Shown in pieces: positions 4,484 to 63,822 of a DNA stretch of 64,000 nt. Position 1 is the stretch's first letter. Every line of letters begins with the position of its first letter. The notes under the pieces were generated by a model. The model was not told the DNA's origin, did not search any database, and was given only the letters and a program-made list of their open reading frames with translations. This stretch comes from Deltaproteobacteria bacterium (GTDB taxonomy: Bacteria; Desulfobacterota; Binatia; HRBIN30; JACQVA1), in NCBI GenBank assembly GCA_016178705.1, contig JACOST010000014.1, forward strand, positions 496,001-560,000. Direction: 5' to 3'. Made by a program: the position numbers and the translations under genes.

Positions 4484-5497
4484 ATGCGTTCGATTCGCAC
4501 ACTGTCCTGGCCGCGCCGGCCGCGCCGCATCGTTGCGTCACGATGGTTCCTCGCGCTGCTCGCATGCATCTGCGCCGCGGTGTTGGCCGGCGCCGCTCTC
4601 GCGGCTACTGTAGGTCAAGAGACCCTGATTGATGTGATCTTCGGCAGCCAGCCCGATCCCGGTGGATTGGACGCCAACGGCGATGGCGTCCTCACCGTCG
4701 CCGACGTTCTTCTGCTCCCGCGCGAAATTCCGCCGACACCCGCCGACACTCCGACCAGTACAGCGACGCGAACGATCACCTCGACCCCGTCGCCGACGGA
4801 AACCCCAACGCCGACACCGACCGTCACGCTCTCCCCGACACCATCACCGACGGCCACCGAAACGCCAACCGCGACCCCCGTGGGGTTGCTGTTCGACGGG
4901 ACCGTGGCGGAGTTCGTGCCCCACGGGGTGGGCGATCAGCTCGTGTACAAGATCACTGATCCGGCGGGCAAGATGACCATCGAGACGACGATAGTAACCA
5001 GCTTGGATACCCTAGGTAATTTCGTGCTCGACGACCAGCAGCTCGATGGTCAGAAGGTCGTGAAACATGAAACGCAGTCCTACTCCGATGCGATCACGCA
5101 GCTATTCTTTGTGGGTGGGAGCGACGTACTGCGGGGGCTGAGTACGACATGCAATCCCCTCCTCTTGCGCCTGAGGATGCCCCTCATCGCTCAGGAGATG
5201 TTCTCCACGGTCAGCCGCTGTACCGTCCGGAGGGACAACACGCCGATCGGCTTCATCGATCGAACCGACACCTTTACTCCCATCGAGATCGTCGACTCCA
5301 TCACCGTAGCGGCTGGCACCTATACGCAGGTCGTGCATCTCGGCGGCAGCACGAACCTCAATGGCGACATGGAGACCGACGAGATTTACTTCGCACCCGG
5401 CATCGGCGCCATCCTGCGGCTGGAGAAGCACGGCACCTTCACCACTAGACACGAATTGTCCGGCGGCACGATCGGCGGCGTGCCGGTGGCGCGGTGA
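4484..5497 (+). CDS. Secreted protein with dockerin-like repeat and Thr/Pro linker
   Basis: A 337-aa protein with an Arg-rich N-terminus and a hydrophobic signal segment (FLALLACICAAVLAGAALAA). One dockerin/EF-hand-like calcium loop follows (GGLDANGDGVLTVADVLLL), then about 40 residues of TPT/SPT linker and a C-terminal domain of about 200 residues of unknown fold. A single calcium loop, rather than the paired loops of true dockerins, suggests a structural repeat. Its TGA overlaps the GTG start of the next gene by four bases, so the two are probably translated together. Confidence 0.8.
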   Translation: MRSIRTLSWPRRPRRIVASRWFLALLACICAAVLAGAALAATVGQETLIDVIFGSQPDPGGLDANGDGVLTVADVLLLPREIPPTPADTPTSTATRTITSTPSPTETPTPTPTVTLSPTPSPTATETPTATPVGLLFDGTVAEFVPHGVGDQLVYKITDPAGKMTIETTIVTSLDTLGNFVLDDQQLDGQKVVKHETQSYSDAITQLFFVGGSDVLRGLSTTCNPLLLRLRMPLIAQEMFSTVSRCTVRRDNTPIGFIDRTDTFTPIEIVDSITVAAGTYTQVVHLGGSTNLNGDMETDEIYFAPGIGAILRLEKHGTFTTRHELSGGTIGGVPVAR

Positions 5498-6825
5498 TCG
5501 AGCCGGTGTGCGCCCAATCCATCAGCACCTTGAGGAACCGAGGATGGCGCGCCGCCATCGCTCTCGCCGTGACAATCGGGTCGCTGGCGCTCGGCATCCG
5601 TTCCGTCGTCGCGGCGGCACCGACGCTGAACGGACACGTTGAGTACGACACCTTCGGTTACCCGGACTCCGCGACGCTCGGGCAGCGCTGGGAGAATTTG
5701 TTCGCCGCCACGGCGCGCGGCACCGGCCAATTCGGTTCCACCCTCACCTGGCAATTTGAAGGACGCGCGGTGGCCGACGATGCGGACTACACCGCGGGCG
5801 CTTATTCACTGCGCAATGCGACTCGCCGCCGCCCGTACCTTTCATTGATTACTGCTCTGCTCGACTATCGGCCGATGCCCGAGGTGCGCGTCAGCGTCGG
5901 CAAGCAGCTCGTCAACTGGAGCGTCTTCGACGAACTCGGGCCGGCGAACTTGATGACGCCGCATGACGAGTCGGACGCGTTCCATCGCGTCGAGCAAGGT
6001 GTCAACGGCATCTCCGTTCACTACAGCGTCGGCAGTGCGTTTGCCGAACTCGTCGTGGTCCCACTGGCCAGCACGCCATCGCGATTGCCGCAGGGACGGT
6101 GGAACATCATCCAAGGCAGCGACGTTGTCGAAGTGCAGAACCAGCCGCCGGTGCGGCTCAACGAAACCCAAGCGGGCGCGCGCGTCGGCACACACATCGG
6201 TTCGCTCGAAGCGAGCCTGATCGGCTACGTTGGGCGCGACACGGAAGCGATATTCGTTCCCGGCCCCCTGATCGTCATCATCGAAAACGGGGTGCCGACA
6301 TTCAAAGCACAGATCATCGATACCTTTCCAACCATGCGCGCCGGCGGCGTGAGCGCATCCTATCCGTGGGGCGATCGGCTGCTGTTTCGGAGAGAGGCGG
6401 TGTACTTCAATAGCCCCGACCCGAATCGCGACGACTTCCTCCACAACGCCTGGGGGGTCGAGTACGCGCTCGACGACTGGCGTTTCGTGCTGAACTACTT
6501 GCGCGACGATCAGATCATCGCGGCCCGCGAAGAAGTCACCAACAAAGGCGAGCGCCGCTTCTTTCAAAGCTTCATATCCGGCGAAGCGCGCTACGACGCC
6601 GGAGGAAGATTTCGCGGACGCCTGCGCGGCGGCTACGATGCCAACGGCGAGTTTGCGTTGATGGAGCCCGAGGTTTCGTACCGGCTCTGGCAAACGCTGT
6701 GGGTGACGTTGCTCGGGCAGGTGACCGGCGTGGGCAAGGCGTCGTACACCAACAACAAGGATTCCTATTTCACCAGCATCCGACACGAGGATCGGCTCGG
6801 GACCCGGATCGAATATGACTTCTGA
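5494..6825 (+). CDS. Outer-membrane beta-barrel protein, DUF1302/porin-like
   Basis: Protein of 443 aa starting at a GTG that overlaps the preceding stop. After a signal peptide ending near VVAAAP, the chain alternates aromatic and polar strands throughout and ends in RIEYDF, the terminal phenylalanine signature for outer-membrane assembly. The segment SVGKQLVNWSVFDELGPANL resembles the conserved part of DUF1302-type barrels, which often sit in catabolic or export clusters. Coupling to the Thr/Pro dockerin-like protein suggests that the two form a surface unit. Cargo unknown. Confidence 0.7.
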   Translation: MIEPVCAQSISTLRNRGWRAAIALAVTIGSLALGIRSVVAAAPTLNGHVEYDTFGYPDSATLGQRWENLFAATARGTGQFGSTLTWQFEGRAVADDADYTAGAYSLRNATRRRPYLSLITALLDYRPMPEVRVSVGKQLVNWSVFDELGPANLMTPHDESDAFHRVEQGVNGISVHYSVGSAFAELVVVPLASTPSRLPQGRWNIIQGSDVVEVQNQPPVRLNETQAGARVGTHIGSLEASLIGYVGRDTEAIFVPGPLIVIIENGVPTFKAQIIDTFPTMRAGGVSASYPWGDRLLFRREAVYFNSPDPNRDDFLHNAWGVEYALDDWRFVLNYLRDDQIIAAREEVTNKGERRFFQSFISGEARYDAGGRFRGRLRGGYDANGEFALMEPEVSYRLWQTLWVTLLGQVTGVGKASYTNNKDSYFTSIRHEDRLGTRIEYDF

Positions 6826-55520: not shown

Positions 55521-57866
55521 TCACCGCCGAGGTGCAGAGCGCGCCTGTGCCTCGGCGGTGCGGCTTGGCGTCGTTGCCGCATCGGGCTTGGCGCGAAACA
55601 AGATCCACAACGCCGCTGGCAAGGCAGTGAAGTCGGCGACCATCGACAGCACGAAGGCGAGAGCGGCGAGTACACCGAACTGGCGCATCGGCGGTAGATC
55701 GGCGAGGCCGAATGCGAGGAAACCGCCGGCGTTGATCATCGTGGCGAAGAAAATCGCGCGGCCGGCAATCAGCAAGGTGTGCTGCAGCGCCTGCTCTACC
55801 GTGCCGTCACGTCGCCGTTCGAGGAAGTGGTAGAAAAAATGAATCTGATCGTTCTCGGAGGTGCCGAGCACGGTCGAGGCGATCAGGATGGTGGCGATGT
55901 TGAGCGTCAGTCCGGTCAGCCGCATGACCAGGAACATCACCAGGATGGCGAAGATCGACGGGATCATCGCCATCAGACGTGCCGCGCCGTTGCGGAACAC
56001 GACGAGGAATGCGGCGAAGATGATCATCACCGTGAGCCCGAAGCTTTCCACCAGCGTCGGCACCAAGCCTTGCGCCATCTTGGCGTGCAACGGCGTTAGC
56101 CCGACCGTCTTCAGCTCCAACTCCTTTAGCGCCGGATTGCGCGCGACCGCGTCGGCCCAGTGTCGTCGGATGGACACGGCGAGACGCTCAAAGCCTTCGT
56201 GCTCCGCCGTGCGCGAGATCACGGTGAGCTGCGCCTGCGACAGTCCATGAGCTTGCACGAAGCGCTGCAGCATCGGTTCGGTTGACGCCATACCCTCGAG
56301 GTCGCCGGCCAACTGATTAAGCTCTTCGGCATTGGTCGGCCAGTCATCGCCGGCACCGCCGATGTAGCGGATGATGCGCAGAATCGTGGTCGGGCCGACG
56401 GCCGCGCCGATGTCCGGATCGTGTTCGAGCGTTTGCTGAAAGTCGTGCAGGCCGTTGAGCACCGCTGGTTCGGACATGCTGCCGACGCCACCCTTCAACC
56501 ACACTTGGGTGATCGACAAGCCGGGGATCACATTGCCGAGCCGGCGAATGTCCCGATACAGCGGCGAGTCGTGGTCCATGTACTCGACCGGATCGGTGAG
56601 GATGCGCAGCGGCGCTACGATCCCGGGCGCTCCGAACAACGCGATGGCGCCGAGCGCGCTCAAGAGCAGCGACGATCCGACCAGCGGCCAGCGCCAACGA
56701 TATGTGAAACGCGGCAACCAGTTCGCCACACGGATGAACCACGCACCGGCGGCGCGCCGCTCCTGCTGCGTCGGCGTCTTGAGCACGGTCTGCAGCGCGG
56801 GAAACAGCGTGAACACGATGATCCAAGTGAACCCGAGTCCCACAGCTACCCAGGCCCCCATCTCGCGAATCGGTCGGATGTCGGAGACCAGCAATGCAGC
56901 GAAGCCAACGGCAGTGGCGAAGATCGATGCGGTGCAGGCGACGAATTTGTTGGTGAGCGCGAACACTTGGTGCGCGGCGACCGAGCGCTCCGCCGGCCGG
57001 TCGACGAAACGCGAGTGCAGGTACACCAGCGTCGCCGTGGCGGTGACGAGAATGGTCATCGGCACCATCGGCGAGACGATCGTCAGCGTGCCGCCGGTGA
57101 TCCCGACGTATCCCAGCGATACGGCCAGACACACGCCGAGCGTGATGAGGAACGCCGCGAGCGTGCGCGGCGAGCGATACGACGAGATGTTGAGCACAAT
57201 GACGAAGGCGACGAAGAGCACGAAGTATTTCCAAGCACCGCGTTGCGTCTCGTCGAGGTAGACGTTGACGTAGGGCTGGCCGAGTTCGTGCAAATCCATC
57301 CCAGCTGGCCCAGCCGGGTTGCGGCCAACGCTCGCAATGGCTCGCTCGATGGCGGCGAGCGTCTGTAAGCGGTCCTCGGCGCTGCTGACTTCGAGCACCA
57401 GCCCGACGGCAAGATAGTGATCGCCGAGCAATCCTTGATGTCGAAAGAGATCCGTGCCGGTCGCGAATTGGCGGAACGCTTCAATCTGTTCGGAGGTGGG
57501 TTGGAACCCGGCCTTGGCGCGGCGGAACACCGAGAGTGCGGAGTTGGCGTGCACGCGCGCGATCGGTTGCAGCGCGTGCTCGATGGCGTCGACTCGGGCG
57601 ATCACCGCGGGCGACAACGGGTCGTCGGCTTCGATGATGAGGAGCGCGAACTCGCCGGAGCCGAAGACCTGCTCGAACTGCCGCGTGGCGATGAAGTCGG
57701 GGTCGGTGGCGACGATGAGTCGGTCGATCGAGTTGTCCTGCCCGACCTGCGCCGCGAAGTACGCGCTCGGCGGCACCAGCACTGCATACAGCGCCAACAC
57801 CCACCAGCGTTTGGCGATGACGAAGGCGAAGAAACGCGACAGCCGGTCGGGTGCGGCTTCGGTCAT
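55521..57866 (-). CDS. RND/MMPL-family transporter
   Basis: A 781-aa permease with two SSD/MMPL halves, each with a large periplasmic loop and six helices. Early FFAFVIAKRWWVLALYAVLV, GYVGITGGTLTIVSPMVPMT and FALTNKFVACTASIFATAVG; late NIATILIASTVLGTSENDQI. No outer-membrane or adaptor gene is close. Members of this HAE3-like group carry hopanoids, lipids or hydrophobic compounds. Started at ATG 57866 with AGGGGA in front; the frame is open further upstream but does not match. Its 3-prime end overlaps the repeat hairpin at 55522. Confidence 0.88.
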   Translation of the reverse strand: MTEAAPDRLSRFFAFVIAKRWWVLALYAVLVPPSAYFAAQVGQDNSIDRLIVATDPDFIATRQFEQVFGSGEFALLIIEADDPLSPAVIARVDAIEHALQPIARVHANSALSVFRRAKAGFQPTSEQIEAFRQFATGTDLFRHQGLLGDHYLAVGLVLEVSSAEDRLQTLAAIERAIASVGRNPAGPAGMDLHELGQPYVNVYLDETQRGAWKYFVLFVAFVIVLNISSYRSPRTLAAFLITLGVCLAVSLGYVGITGGTLTIVSPMVPMTILVTATATLVYLHSRFVDRPAERSVAAHQVFALTNKFVACTASIFATAVGFAALLVSDIRPIREMGAWVAVGLGFTWIIVFTLFPALQTVLKTPTQQERRAAGAWFIRVANWLPRFTYRWRWPLVGSSLLLSALGAIALFGAPGIVAPLRILTDPVEYMDHDSPLYRDIRRLGNVIPGLSITQVWLKGGVGSMSEPAVLNGLHDFQQTLEHDPDIGAAVGPTTILRIIRYIGGAGDDWPTNAEELNQLAGDLEGMASTEPMLQRFVQAHGLSQAQLTVISRTAEHEGFERLAVSIRRHWADAVARNPALKELELKTVGLTPLHAKMAQGLVPTLVESFGLTVMIIFAAFLVVFRNGAARLMAMIPSIFAILVMFLVMRLTGLTLNIATILIASTVLGTSENDQIHFFYHFLERRRDGTVEQALQHTLLIAGRAIFFATMINAGGFLAFGLADLPPMRQFGVLAALAFVLSMVADFTALPAALWILFRAKPDAATTPSRTAEAQARSAPRR
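55522..55560. terminator. CACCGCCGAGG hairpin between arsI and the MMPL gene
   Basis: CACCGCCGAGGTGCAG and CTGTGCCTCGGCGGTG pair around a short loop, giving a 16-base stem with few mismatches. It lies at the meeting point of the convergent arsI and MMPL genes and overlaps the last codons of the latter. It resembles the repeat family at 32123 and could terminate both transcripts. Confidence 0.5.
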
Positions 57867-57989
57867 GGCGTCCCCTGACGAGAGTGACGCAGCGCTGCAA
57901 TCGCGGTGGCGAATCGGGTCACGGCGCAAGGGAGTTAGCACAATGTTGCGCCCGATGCGCAAGCCTCGCGCACCGCGATGAACTCAGCT

Positions 57990-58835
57990 CTACTCGTCGC
58001 GCACGCCGCGATCGCAGCCGCGGATCATTCCCTGGCTCATCCAGCGCGTGAACCATGCCGAGACGGCGGCGGGATCGTGGCCGTGCGCGGCCAGATGCGC
58101 GGTGACGGCGGCGAGCGTGTGGCCGTCCAAGAGCGATTCCAGCGCTGCGGCTTCGGCGCTATCCACGGACTCGCAGCACTCGGCCAGACCCGTGCGGTAC
58201 ACCAGCACGCGATCTGGCCGATCGTGCACATCCAGCGCGATGGCTTCGATCGGGGTTTCGCGCGCTTCCCAGAGTTCACGAATCGGCCACGGCGAGCACA
58301 CCAAGGCGACGGAAGGTTGGAAGCGCAGACGCGCGCCTTCCCAGTCGTCGAGCGTCCATGATGTCAACACGCTGGGGTCTAGCGGCGACTCGTCATGCGC
58401 GTGGAACGCACAAGCGATGTCCCATTCGAGTTCCGCGAGATCCGCCAGGAAGGGAAGTTGTGTCGTCAATTCATCCGCGCGCAGAAACGCCGGCAGCTCG
58501 GCGCCCGCATCGTTGAGATTGTACGATTCCAGCGACAGCGCGCCGAGGTACCGGCGCGTCAGATGCGTCATCGCCCCATGACCGATCATGTGAGCGACTG
58601 CGGGAAACGTCTCGACGAGGGCGTCGTGCAGGCGCGCCGGATAGCCGTCGAGGTAGACGTGCAGGCGCTCAGTGATCGTGCCGCGCGGCACTGCGGCGAG
58701 CGCGAGCGCCGGCGCCTCGTGCTCAAGCCGCTCGGGATGCAAGATCAGCGACGCCATTGATCTCTGCAATTCGCGGAGCGAGGCGCAGCGCCGATCCTCG
58801 TGCAAAGTCGGTGGCGAACTCTCGGTGAGGGTCAT
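57990..58835 (-). CDS. bufC: DUF2063-family partner protein (BufC-like)
   Basis: A 281-aa protein with the DUF2063 N-terminus CASLRELQRSMASLILHPER, helical part LDGYPARLHDALVETFPAVA, LTRRYLGALSLESYNLNDAG and ELEWDIACAFHAHD. DUF2063 proteins are partners of MNIO (DUF692) enzymes in bufferin-type RiPP clusters. They hold the precursor leader near the enzyme. Started at ATG 58835, inside the bufB frame; the overlap of 113 bp is unusual (see findings). Last gene of the operon. Confidence 0.85.
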   Translation of the reverse strand: MTLTESSPPTLHEDRRCASLRELQRSMASLILHPERLEHEAPALALAAVPRGTITERLHVYLDGYPARLHDALVETFPAVAHMIGHGAMTHLTRRYLGALSLESYNLNDAGAELPAFLRADELTTQLPFLADLAELEWDIACAFHAHDESPLDPSVLTSWTLDDWEGARLRFQPSVALVCSPWPIRELWEARETPIEAIALDVHDRPDRVLVYRTGLAECCESVDSAEAAALESLLDGHTLAAVTAHLAAHGHDPAAVSAWFTRWMSQGMIRGCDRGVRDE

Positions 58836-59652
58836 TGGTTGTCTCCGCAATCAGTCGGGCTCGTTCCGCTTCGGCGCGCAAGCGGTCGAACGAAGGAATC
58901 TCGGCATCCCACTCGACCAGCGTCGACACGGCGCCGAAGCGTCGCACGGCATGCGCGTACAGCGCCCACACGTCATCACTCACGGGCGCGCTATGGGTGT
59001 CGAACAGGTACGTGCCCATGTCGGTGAAGCCGGCAAGATGAATCTGCGCAATGCGCTCGGGCGGTAACGCGTCGAGATAGCGCAACGGATCGAAACCGAG
59101 ATTGTAGGCGCTGACGTAGACGTTGTTGACGTCGAGCAAGATGCCGCAATCGGCTTGCTCGGCGAGAGCGGCGAGGAACTCCCACTCGCTGATCGTCGAA
59201 TGGCGATAGGCGATGTACGTCGACGGATTTTCGAGCGCGATGCGGCGGCCGAGCGCATCTTGCACAGCGCTGAGGCGGCGCACGACATGCGCGAGCGCTT
59301 CCTCGGTGTAGGACAGCGGCAGCAAGTCGTAGAGGCTGCGGCCATCGACGCCGGTCCAGCACAAGTGATCGGTCACCAGCGCCGGCTCGATGCGATCGAT
59401 CAACCTGCGCAGGTTACCCAGGTATCGCGCGTCGATCGGATCGGTACCGCCGATGGAGAGCGCGACGCCGTGCAAAGCGACGGGATGATCGCGCCGAACC
59501 TGCTCCAGCACATGCAGCGGGCGGCCGCCGGTATCCATGTAGTTCTCGCTGATCGCCTCGAACCAATCGATGCGGGTGGGACCGCTCAACACGTCGGCGT
59601 AGTGTTCACTCCGGAGGCCGACGCCGAAGCCGAGGTGGGAGAAGTTGGTCAT
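58723..59652 (-). CDS. bufB: MNIO-family (DUF692) multinuclear iron oxidase (BufB-like)
   Basis: Of 309 aa. TIM-barrel phrases of DUF692: GFGVGLRSEHYADVLSGPTR, ENYMD, ALHGVALSIGG (His), TDHLCWTG (His), ALENPSTYIAY (Glu), CGILLDVNNVYVSAYN (Asp, Asn) and IAQIHLAGF (His). These ligate two or three iron ions and convert cysteines of precursor peptides, in bufferins to thiooxazoles that bind copper. Start ATG 59652. The last 37 residues, after about ETTNDP, lie in the overlap with bufC and have no counterpart in the usual family end. Confidence 0.9.
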   Translation of the reverse strand: MTNFSHLGFGVGLRSEHYADVLSGPTRIDWFEAISENYMDTGGRPLHVLEQVRRDHPVALHGVALSIGGTDPIDARYLGNLRRLIDRIEPALVTDHLCWTGVDGRSLYDLLPLSYTEEALAHVVRRLSAVQDALGRRIALENPSTYIAYRHSTISEWEFLAALAEQADCGILLDVNNVYVSAYNLGFDPLRYLDALPPERIAQIHLAGFTDMGTYLFDTHSAPVSDDVWALYAHAVRRFGAVSTLVEWDAEIPSFDRLRAEAERARLIAETTNDPHREFATDFARGSALRLAPRIAEINGVADLASRAA

Positions 59653-59685
59653 TCCCTCACTGGTCGAGGCGCGTGATGACGGAGC

Positions 59686-59741
59686 GACTGGTGTTGGTGA
59701 GTGGCGACACGAAGTGCCCGACCAGTCACCAACCACCAGTC
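59686..59741 (-). promoter_or_regulatory. Imperfect hairpin between bufA and bufB
   Basis: In the minus direction, GACTGGTGGTTGGTGACTGG and CCACTCACCAACACCAGTC pair over about 19 bases around a 17-base loop. It occupies the middle of the 102-bp bufA-bufB gap, so it could end part of the transcripts and keep the precursor more abundant than the enzymes. It may also be a repeat element; no poly-U follows. Confidence 0.5.
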
Positions 59742-59754
59742 ACGCGTCACGACC

Positions 59755-60033
59755 TCAGCCCTTGTCTGGCGTCAGCCGCCCGCCTTCCATCTTGAGACAC
59801 GCGTCCTTGCTCTCGACCTCGGAGAAGCCTTGGCCCTTGCAGGCGTTCTTGCCGGCGCAGGCATGACCGGCGCCGGCGCACCCGCCCTGACCCTTGCACT
59901 TGTTGGCGCCGTAGCATTTCACTTTGGCGCCCTCGCCTTCGGCGGCTTGCACCGTGCCGACGGCGCCCAGCGCCAGAATCCCCGCGACGGCGGAAGCCAA
60001 GAGTACCTTGCCGGTGTTCGAACGTGTTGCCAT
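59755..60033 (-). CDS. bufA: Bufferin-like precursor peptide (BufA-like)
   Basis: A 92-aa exported protein: signal peptide LLASAVAGILALGAVGTVQAA, then a short Cys-rich core with KCYGANKCKGQGGCAGAGHA, CAGKNACKGQG and KDACLK (six cysteines, repeated CxG/NxCKG units). This is the layout of bufferin precursors, in which the Cys are modified by the MNIO enzyme before or during export and then bind copper. AAGGAGA lies upstream of the ATG. First gene of the minus-strand run and divergent from the flavoprotein gene. Confidence 0.88.
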   Translation of the reverse strand: MATRSNTGKVLLASAVAGILALGAVGTVQAAEGEGAKVKCYGANKCKGQGGCAGAGHACAGKNACKGQGFSEVESKDACLKMEGGRLTPDKG

Positions 60034-60129: not shown

Positions 60130-60141
60130 TGCCCCTAGGGG
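60130..60141. promoter_or_regulatory. GCCCCTAGGGGC palindrome upstream of bufA
   Basis: A perfect 12-base palindrome about 100 bp upstream of the bufA start and about 120 bp before the flavoprotein gene. It might be an operator for one or both, or the remains of a repeat. Only the symmetry is seen. Confidence 0.3.
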
Positions 60142-60156
60142 CGGCATCGAATCGAC

Positions 60157-60251: not shown

Positions 60252-60255
<4 letters not shown>
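60157..60255 (+). CDS. Possible 32-codon leader ORF before the flavoprotein gene
   Basis: ATG at 60157 reads MVQNRPTLDADADRLLIDAV then DRYHLVLKRGQL and stops at TGA 60253-60255, which overlaps the ATG of the next gene (ATGA). The perfect coupling suggests that it is translated, perhaps to control the downstream gene. There is no homology to judge by, and chance cannot be excluded. Confidence 0.3.
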
Positions 60256-61784
<1,529 letters not shown>

Positions 61785-61859
61785 GGGTATCGACGGTGAT
61801 CGAGATGGTAACTACTTGCGCACCGATGCACCTAAGCAGCGTTGCCCTGGAACTGCATC

Positions 61860-62108
61860 ATGACTTGCAAGGAATTAACTGAGCTCATCATCGACTACGT
61901 CGAAGGCGACCTGCCGTCGCCGGTGCTTGCCACCTTCGAAGCGCACCTCGCCGCGTGTCCGGAGTGCGTGGCGTATCTGCAGAGTTATCGTGAGACCATC
62001 GCGCTCGGTCGAGCGGCCGCGACGGCGTCCGACGACTCAGCCAGTGCCGATGTGCCCGAGGAACTGGTGCAAGCGATCGTCGCGGCTCACGCAAAACAGC
62101 GTGGCTGA
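61860..62108 (+). CDS. zf-HC2 anti-sigma-like protein
   Basis: An 82-aa protein beginning MTCKELTELIIDYVEGDLPS, with the zinc motif HLAACPECVAYL (HxxxCxxC) of anti-sigma zinc-finger domains. No transmembrane segment and no sigma factor gene are adjacent, so the partner is elsewhere, perhaps the ECF gene at 23369 or another. It follows the flavoprotein gene by 75 bp on the same strand. Its start is the ATG at 61860; an earlier ATG at 61842 is possible. Confidence 0.8.
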   Translation: MTCKELTELIIDYVEGDLPSPVLATFEAHLAACPECVAYLQSYRETIALGRAAATASDDSASADVPEELVQAIVAAHAKQRG

Positions 62109-62150: not shown

Positions 62151-62393
62151 ATGGCTGCCATTACACTCAAAGCATTGTCTCCTTCGTTGCATCGCGCCCT
62201 TAAGACCCGCGCCTCGCGGCACAAGCGGAGCCTCAATCAGGAAGTGATCGCGGTGCTGGAGGAAGCCGTCGCACCCTCTCGCCGCGTCGACGTCGAGGCG
62301 ATGTTGGCCAACGCGAAGCGCTTCCGAGATTCCCTCAAGTTCAAAGCCCGGCCCGCCGAGATCGATGCGCTCAAGCGTATAGGTCGCGCGTGA
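62151..62393 (+). CDS. vapB: FitA/VapB-like ribbon-helix-helix antitoxin
   Basis: Of 80 aa: AAITLKALSPSLHRALKTRA followed by RHKRSLNQEVIAVLEEAV, the FitA-like ribbon-helix-helix. The C-terminal tail should wrap the PIN toxin. The gene end overlaps the toxin GTG by four bases. No separate RBS is visible, because the operator-like repeat occupies that place. Confidence 0.88.
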   Translation: MAAITLKALSPSLHRALKTRASRHKRSLNQEVIAVLEEAVAPSRRVDVEAMLANAKRFRDSLKFKARPAEIDALKRIGRA

Positions 62394-62806
62394 TCGTCGT
62401 CGATACCAACGTACTCGCCTACCATTGGCTGCCCGGTCGCAGGGCGAGCGCGACAGAGGCATTGGCCCGACTCGATATGGAGTGGGCGGCACCGCTGCTG
62501 TGGCGATCGGAGTTCCGGAATGTCCTGGCGGGTTATATCCGCTCGGGCCGCCTGTCGGTCGCAGAGGCCGAACGCGCGGTGCGCCATGCCGCGAGCTCCC
62601 TGCTTGGCGGTGAGCACGTAGTGGCCGACGAGGCCGTGCTGGGCTTGGTCACCCGCTCCAAATGCTCCGCCTACGATTGCGAATTTGTGGCGCTGGCCGA
62701 CGCACTCAACACGGTGCTCGTCACCGACGACAAGGCTCTGCTCGCTGCTTTTCCCAAACTCTGCCGCTCCCTCGACGACGCCATCCAAGGTCGCCTCCCC
62801 TCGTGA
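62390..62806 (+). CDS. vapC: VapC PIN-domain toxin
   Basis: A 138-aa PIN nuclease starting at GTG 62390. Acidic residues: Asp5 in VVDTNVLAY, a Glu in WRSEFRNVLAGY, Asp in YDCEFVALAD and Asp in VTDDKALLAAF. These chelate magnesium for RNA cleavage. Coupled to vapB by GTGA. Expected to cut tRNA or rRNA when free. Confidence 0.9.
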   Translation: MIVVDTNVLAYHWLPGRRASATEALARLDMEWAAPLLWRSEFRNVLAGYIRSGRLSVAEAERAVRHAASSLLGGEHVVADEAVLGLVTRSKCSAYDCEFVALADALNTVLVTDDKALLAAFPKLCRSLDDAIQGRLPS

Positions 62807-63030
62807 CCGCTCCTCCTGCCCGCGCAAGCATCCGATCGCGAGACCGTCGCGGCGGACGCGAAAACGAGGAACCAATTGGTGGTGATTGCTGTTGTTGACG
62901 ACCGTGGGCACGTGTTGCTGACGGCAAAGTGATTGGTGCTATTGAGTGAGTGGCAACACGCCGCAAATCGACGAAGACATCGCCCGCGCCGGCGCTGACG
63001 CGTTCAAGTAGATCCCGATCGGTGAAGAAT

Positions 63031-63822
63031 ATGTACTCGGTTCCCATCGCCCGCATGCCCGTTCTGTCGTGGCTGGTCTGCGTCGCATTGGGCGTCGTGC
63101 TGCTTCTCGTTCCGGGTCCCGCCACCGCGGGCTGTATTGGCGACTGCGATGACGACAACGCCGTGACCGTCGACGAATTGATTACCAGCGTTGGCATCGC
63201 GCTCGGTGGTCCGCTCAGCAACTGCCGCAACGCCGACGTTGACGGCGACCAGAGCGTCACGGTCGACGAGTTGATCGCAGCCGTCGACGTCGCGTTGAGT
63301 AGTTGCCCACCGCTGAACGCACCGACACCAACGCCGACATCAACGCGCCCAACGCTGTCGCCCACGACTACTCCAACCGCCACACCGACCGGACCCGACG
63401 ATCTCGTTCCGCCAACCGGCTCGGCCCTGCCGCCGTGGCTGCAGGCCGGAAGGTATCGGCAATGGACGGCGGAGTCGTCGATTCATGCGTCAGGTGGACC
63501 GCACGGGGGATTCGTGCGGACCTTCTTGAACGACATCGTCTTGCAATCCCTCGCCGCAGGGAACGCCGCGCACCCGACGGGCGCAGCGCTGGTCAAGGAA
63601 CTGTACGGATCGAGTGACGATACGCAACCCGAAGGCTGGGCGGTCGAGATCAAGGCGCGGGCCGACAGTGCCGGTGGGTCAGGGTGGTATTGGTACGAGG
63701 GCTACGGCACGTCAGCGTTCGCCAATGGATTGGGCGTGCCGGTGTGTACGGGCTGTCACGGCGCAGACTACCGGGCGTTTGTGAGCAAAGACTTCGTGCT
63801 GAGTCCCTACCCGCTACAGTAA
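63031..63822 (+). CDS. Secreted dockerin-like / Thr-Pro / cytochrome P460-like protein
   Basis: Protein of 263 aa with signal peptide VLSWLVCVALGVVLLLVPGP. Two dockerin/EF-hand-like loops follow (DCDDDNAVTVDELITSVGIA and DVDGDQSVTVDELIAAVDVA), then a TPTPTSTRPT linker and a C-terminal region with IHASGGPHGGFVRTFLND, GAALVKELYG and CTGCHG (CxxCH). The heme motif near the C-terminus, together with the PHxxxVRTFLN and VKELY phrases, resembles the cytochrome P460 type. ATG 63031 starts the hydrophobic segment; the frame is open from 62950. Confidence 0.75.
   Translation: MYSVPIARMPVLSWLVCVALGVVLLLVPGPATAGCIGDCDDDNAVTVDELITSVGIALGGPLSNCRNADVDGDQSVTVDELIAAVDVALSSCPPLNAPTPTPTSTRPTLSPTTTPTATPTGPDDLVPPTGSALPPWLQAGRYRQWTAESSIHASGGPHGGFVRTFLNDIVLQSLAAGNAAHPTGAALVKELYGSSDDTQPEGWAVEIKARADSAGGSGWYWYEGYGTSAFANGLGVPVCTGCHGADYRAFVSKDFVLSPYPLQ

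Follow-up and report, generated by a model that had tools for sequence, protein, structure and literature searches.

A bufferin-2 operon in a genome of the HRBin30 lineage and its neighbourhood

The three adjoining genes on the minus strand at 57990-60033 of the window (the whole stretch of 64,000 nucleotides analysed in this study) carry the precursor, enzyme and partner protein of a bufferin-2 operon, in the order bufA-bufB-bufC. The gene content and order, family membership, enzyme residues, invariant cysteines, fold of the partner protein and lineage-wide co-occurrence reported below were all directly observed. Taken as a whole, the operon is very probably the biosynthetic set of a bufferin-2 (BUF_6/12Cys; Cys-Lys captophorin), with 5-thiooxazole modification and periplasmic copper buffering; the modification, the cysteines modified, export, copper binding and a role in copper stress are proposed by analogy with characterised systems. 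These data document a standard bufferin-2 system, in some genomes present twice, in an uncultured lineage to which HRBin30, an order of Binatota (PMC8262859), belongs; the window itself most likely comes from Binatota. The operon type is widespread and already described, and Buf2 precursors are known by thousands, hence the find itself carries little further weight.

The operon and its precursor

The gene order was read from the open reading frames and translations of the window, and the following features were assigned.

59755-60033, minus strand: bufA, six-Cys precursor of the BufA2 family, 92 aa (NF050166; cysteines invariant)
59941-60033, minus strand: predicted signal peptide of the Sec type in BufA, MATRSNTGKVLLASAVAGILALGAVGTVQAA; by eye, the cleavage site follows residue 30 or 31
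59797-59916, minus strand: bufferin core, Cys40 to Cys79, spacing 5-5-6-5-13, shared with other six-Cys homologues
58723-59652, minus strand: bufB, MNIO (DUF692) bufferin maturase, 309 aa from ATG 59652 (NF050167, PF05114, iron-site residues)
57990-58850, minus strand: bufC, DUF2063-RRE partner protein, PME type 1 (PF09836 and AlphaFold fold match)

BufA matched the NCBIfam BufA2 model NF050166 with 67.8 bits (E 6.9e-19), above the curated cutoff of 60. Its N-terminus has clear n, h and c regions when the sequence is read by eye, and the signal peptide is followed by six cysteines in the series KCYG-NKCKG-GGCAG-HACAG-NACKG-DACLK. A Pfam profile search gave no match for BufA, so no DUF2282, and the sequence contains no EGKCG repeat. 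The AlphaFold model of BufA was poor (pLDDT 60.8) and not usable. Three adjacent genes on the same strand, all scoring over curated cutoffs and arranged in the conserved order of the family, are not a product of chance. An earlier note, made from the window's sequence, had described a precursor with a signal peptide and these six cysteines, a DUF692 (MNIO) enzyme and a DUF2063 protein on one strand, and had called the product a bufferin. The profile matches bear out the three family assignments (NF050166 for the precursor, NF050167 and PF05114 for the enzyme, PF09836 for the partner), and the assignment can be sharpened to bufferin type 2, given that the BufA2 and BufB cutoffs were passed and the core has the canonical Buf2 spacing. 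Repeated sequence of the GTGACTGGTGGTTGGTGACTGGT type lies in the gap between bufA and bufB, at about 59690-59760.

The comparison of core spacing with known subtypes, which the same note had called for, was made with BufA2-like ORFs located at BufB homologues in one scan of a genome collection (80 loci). Such an ORF was present at 72 of the 80 independent BufB loci. Among 48 six-Cys precursors the spacing 5-5-6-5-12 occurred in 22 and 5-5-6-5-13 in 17, which makes the window's core the second commonest form and places it within the canonical Buf2 pattern. All six cysteines were invariant in precursor alignments of 31 and 37 sequences, as were residues G42, N44, G48 and N63; six conserved cysteines have been reported for 90% of published Buf2 members (PMC12452194). 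Of the 48 six-Cys precursors, 41 have a lysine directly after Cys 2 and 45 have one after Cys 5; the window's BufA has both. This Cys-Lys motif is that of the 'Cys-Lys' group of captophorins (PMC12668002).

Of the systems compared, Bufferin 2 (NCBIfam BufA2; PMC12452194, PMC12668002) shares with the window's operon a signal peptide (predicted here), the six conserved cysteines, Cys-Lys at Cys 2 and 5, the bufA-bufB-bufC order, an MNIO with a PME type 1 partner and an operon free of sigma/NrsF genes. The window's operon differs in that a DoxX gene was not seen next to it and that its precursor has a tail of the CLKxEGGRLT type, common to its own cluster and to a number of Omnitrophota. Bufferin 1 (DUF2282, Caulobacter) has a Sec-exported precursor, as predicted here for BufA, with a related MNIO and DUF2063 partner, and 5-thiooxazole formation and copper chelation have been reported for it. 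However, its precursor belongs to another family with four cysteines rather than six, often accompanied by sigma/NrsF genes, and BufA, with six cysteines and no Pfam match, is not a four-Cys DUF2282 precursor. Oxazolin, fontiphorin and gonophorin (EGKCG, Lys-Cys captophorins; HvfABC) likewise pair an MNIO with a DUF2063-RRE partner, and the essential HvfB residues are kept in BufB. Those systems differ in that their core repeats EGKCG rather than showing the six-Cys pattern and that their catalytic Asp is followed by Phe, not Ala. BufB fell short of the cutoff of the HvfB model (252.3 vs 360 bits).

The enzyme and its partner

BufB matched NF050167 with 373.7 bits (cutoff 310) and PF05114 with 361 bits. 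The mechanically called ORF (58723-59736) opens at a far-upstream GTG, and homology begins near ATG 59652. Residues were read off an alignment of BufB to MbnB and to 3BWW, an MNIO of known structure. The enzyme retains the iron-site His, Asp, Glu and Asn residues, the positions checked being H61, D95, H96, E141, D174, N176, H205, D218, H220, E247 and D249, the last of which occupies the catalytic-base position. In HvfB, residues N175, D242 and H244 are essential within HvfBC and their replacement abolishes activity (PMC13419390); the equivalents in BufB are N176, D218 and H220.

The residue after the catalytic Asp is Ala in the window's BufB, whereas Asp stands there in the logo published for Cys-Lys MNIOs (PMC12668002). 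The variant is common in the set gathered here. Across 98 BufB rows, which include three duplicate contigs, the position is D in 46, E in 25, A in 24 and G in 3 (Ala/Gly in 27 of 98), and every scorable locus with an Ala/Gly enzyme (16/16) has a precursor with Cys-Lys motifs. These counts indicate that pairing with Cys-Lys precursors does not depend on the acidic residue, for which a role in reading the Cys-Lys motif has been proposed. A distinctive enzyme subtype defined by the Ala was rejected, since the site is variable and the pairing is retained.

A related alternative is that the window carries a diverged buf2 subtype, tied to the Ala and the CLKxEGGRLT-type C-terminal tail, in which fewer or different cysteines are modified than in classical Cys-Lys bufferins. 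The window's BufB cluster comprises nine loci; at each of them the precursor tail is CL[K/R/E]xxGG[R/H]L, at seven the enzyme has Ala, and exchanges at the corresponding position of FonB altered substrate tolerance (PMC12668002). However, the cluster itself is weakly supported (94/65), Ala or Gly is scattered across the BufB tree, the tail also occurs in Omnitrophota whose enzymes carry an acidic residue, and the precursors paired with Ala/Gly enzymes keep their Cys-Lys motifs without exception. A diverged subtype is therefore very unlikely, and a standard bufferin-2 remains the preferred reading.

BufC passed the Pfam cutoff for DUF2063 (PF09836; 51 bits, cutoff 27.2). Its gene and the 3' end of bufB overlap; ATG 58835 is the likelier start of bufC. 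A search of the BufC sequence against the PDB gave no credible match, so a fold search was used instead. The AlphaFold model (pLDDT 87.9, pTM 0.84) had significant PDB fold matches only to TglI (8hi7, 8hci) and NGO1945 (3dee), both of them MNIO partner folds, and it matched the RREs of lasso peptides more weakly. BufC did not reach the cutoff of the NCBIfam HvfC model (35.8 bits, cutoff 142), though the fold matches. Apparent natural BufB-BufC fusions, as single open frames of ~560-625 codons, were seen at loci L011, L012, L013, L018, L025, L027, L040, L044, L048, L067 and L074, mostly from Omnitrophota and Alphaproteobacteria.

Proposed modification and copper role

5-Thiooxazole formation and, generally, copper binding are known from characterised MNIO-PME1 clusters (PMC12668002), and a similar course can be proposed for the window's operon. 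BufA would be made with its signal peptide, and a complex of BufC (DUF2063-RRE) and BufB (a mixed-valent di-iron MNIO) would bind it in the cytoplasm. With O2, BufB would take four hydrogens off each modified cysteine to give 5-thiooxazoles. The modified residues would most likely be the four central cysteines, while Cys40 and Cys79 may form a disulphide like that of bufferin 1. The modified peptide would leave via Sec, and its thiol-bearing heterocycles would capture surplus periplasmic copper.

No copper regulator or operator was found for the buf operon, and CsoR had no match in the window's genome. A perfect palindrome, GCCCCTAGGGGC, lies at 60131-60142, 109 nt upstream of bufA and between bufA and the divergent flavoprotein gene. 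It was considered as a CsoR-like operator and rejected: it is the sole copy in the 6.1 Mb genome, the genome lacks a CsoR match, and the palindrome was not found upstream of bufA in relatives (L003 among them). Rfam gave no match in the window, and scans for promoters and terminators gave no signal above chance.

Distribution in the lineage and the second operon

A search of 58 genomes, the window's own and 57 relatives, found BufB over the cutoff in 40 and BufA2 in 37. The earlier note had said that homologues of the precursor lacking MNIO genes across the whole lineage would speak against it; instead, each BufA2-positive genome also has a BufB match. G001, the sole relative from the same family, lacks both BufA2 and BufB. 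The operon is thus dispensable, which is the one point in favour of a decayed or silent operon in the window. Against this, none of the three reading frames is interrupted and all are conserved, the six cysteines and the active-site residues examined are intact, and homologous operons of the same organisation persist in other genera, so that decay is extremely improbable.

A further buf2 operon, not linked to the first, lies on a different contig of the window's genome (L001). The two BufB enzymes, 57% identical, occupy separate places in the tree: the window's BufB groups with same-order relatives and L003 (support 98/86 for the three-row clade), and the other lies in another subclade. Given this identity and these separate positions, the two operons look like old separate copies rather than the result of a recent duplication. 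It is conceivable, but improbable, that the two bufferins divide work in one cell, with the window's buf2 (Ala, CLKxEGGRLT-type tail) modifying another subset of cysteines or preferring another metal than the second, acidic-type buf2.

Variations on the single-precursor arrangement were also seen among the relatives and in the wider collection. An orphan BufA2 precursor, 62% identical to that of the window and with no MNIO beside it, lies at about 5830-6135 of locus L161 (G002:C1, about 975.9 kb), flanked by YceI-like and TonB-receptor-like genes. The only BufB of that genome (G002) is on another contig, which suggests modification in trans. A candidate BufA2 fusion in G002, a 951-codon open frame, was rejected as merely a long stop-free frame around the ordinary orphan precursor. 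In Bradyrhizobium oropedii (L061), a tandem bufA2 pair (5117-5380 and 5565-5822) stands ahead of one BufB.

The metal neighbourhood

The earlier note had also placed the operon in a combined metal-stress region (52.9-61.8 kb), with ars genes on one side and a mercuric-reductase-like flavoprotein on the other. The ars genes are real. At 52.9-55.5 kb, about 3-5 kb from buf, profile searches found ACR3 (369.5 bits) and ArsI (175.2 bits), both over their cutoffs, and an ArsR-type regulator; an ArsC-like phosphatase was recognised by eye. An RND/MMPL exporter gene of 813 codons (55521-57962) sits between the ars genes and buf. ACR3 is present in 25 other relatives, 16 of which also have BufB, but in no case (0/16) do ACR3 and bufB come within 15 kb of each other. 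A conserved ars-buf region was rejected on this count, and a conserved buf-RND operon was rejected on comparison of the relatives' loci. The ars genes beside buf look coincidental to this genome.

The flavoprotein on the other side of the operon was assigned as follows.

60252-61784, plus strand: FAD-dependent pyridine-nucleotide-disulphide oxidoreductase (PRK06370.1-3), divergent neighbour of bufA, not MerA (NF004991)

It passed NF004991 with 839.5 bits (cutoff 620) and missed the cutoff of the MerA model (396.9 bits, cutoff 454.45). It has six cysteines, with no CC vicinal pair and none in the last 130 residues. By these tests it is not a mercuric reductase, and this part of the claim did not stand. 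Flavoproteins of the NF004991 type occur in 48 of the 58 genomes, mostly away from buf. Even so, 3 of 34 other genomes have one no more than 15 kb from bufB, where chance would give about 0.29 (P about 0.003), and in L009, a MAG labelled Proteobacteria, the gene is divergent beside bufA. The recurring closeness of flavoprotein and buf is real but modest, and it is the only linkage of the combined region seen to recur.

These observations bear on a further alternative, that the same modification machinery serves a thiophilic metal other than copper (arsenite, mercury or gold) within a joint metal-stress region formed with the ars genes and the flavoprotein. The nearby ars genes and the recurrence of the flavoprotein near bufB are consistent with it, as are the MerC-bufferin fusions and gold-induced 'gig' operons on record (PMC12452194). 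However, ACR3 does not accompany bufB in other relatives, the RND gene separates ars from buf, and the flavoprotein lacks the marks of MerA and is widespread at a distance from buf. This alternative is considered unlikely, and copper remains the preferred ligand for the proposed bufferin. The earlier note had rightly recognised an operon of a known type, and its extension to a metal region is mostly unsupported.

Three smaller features were seen around the flavoprotein gene. A small zf-HC2 (anti-sigma-like) gene lies 3' of it in the window (60252-62108), in L151 (11925-13808) and in L165 (2750-5792), and the pair is near buf in each. Further on in the window, a small gene overlaps a PIN-like gene at 62151-62806, with the look of an antitoxin-toxin pair. 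The gene at 62950-63822 encodes a protein with an EF-hand/dockerin-like stretch and a match to cytochrome P460 below the Pfam cutoff.
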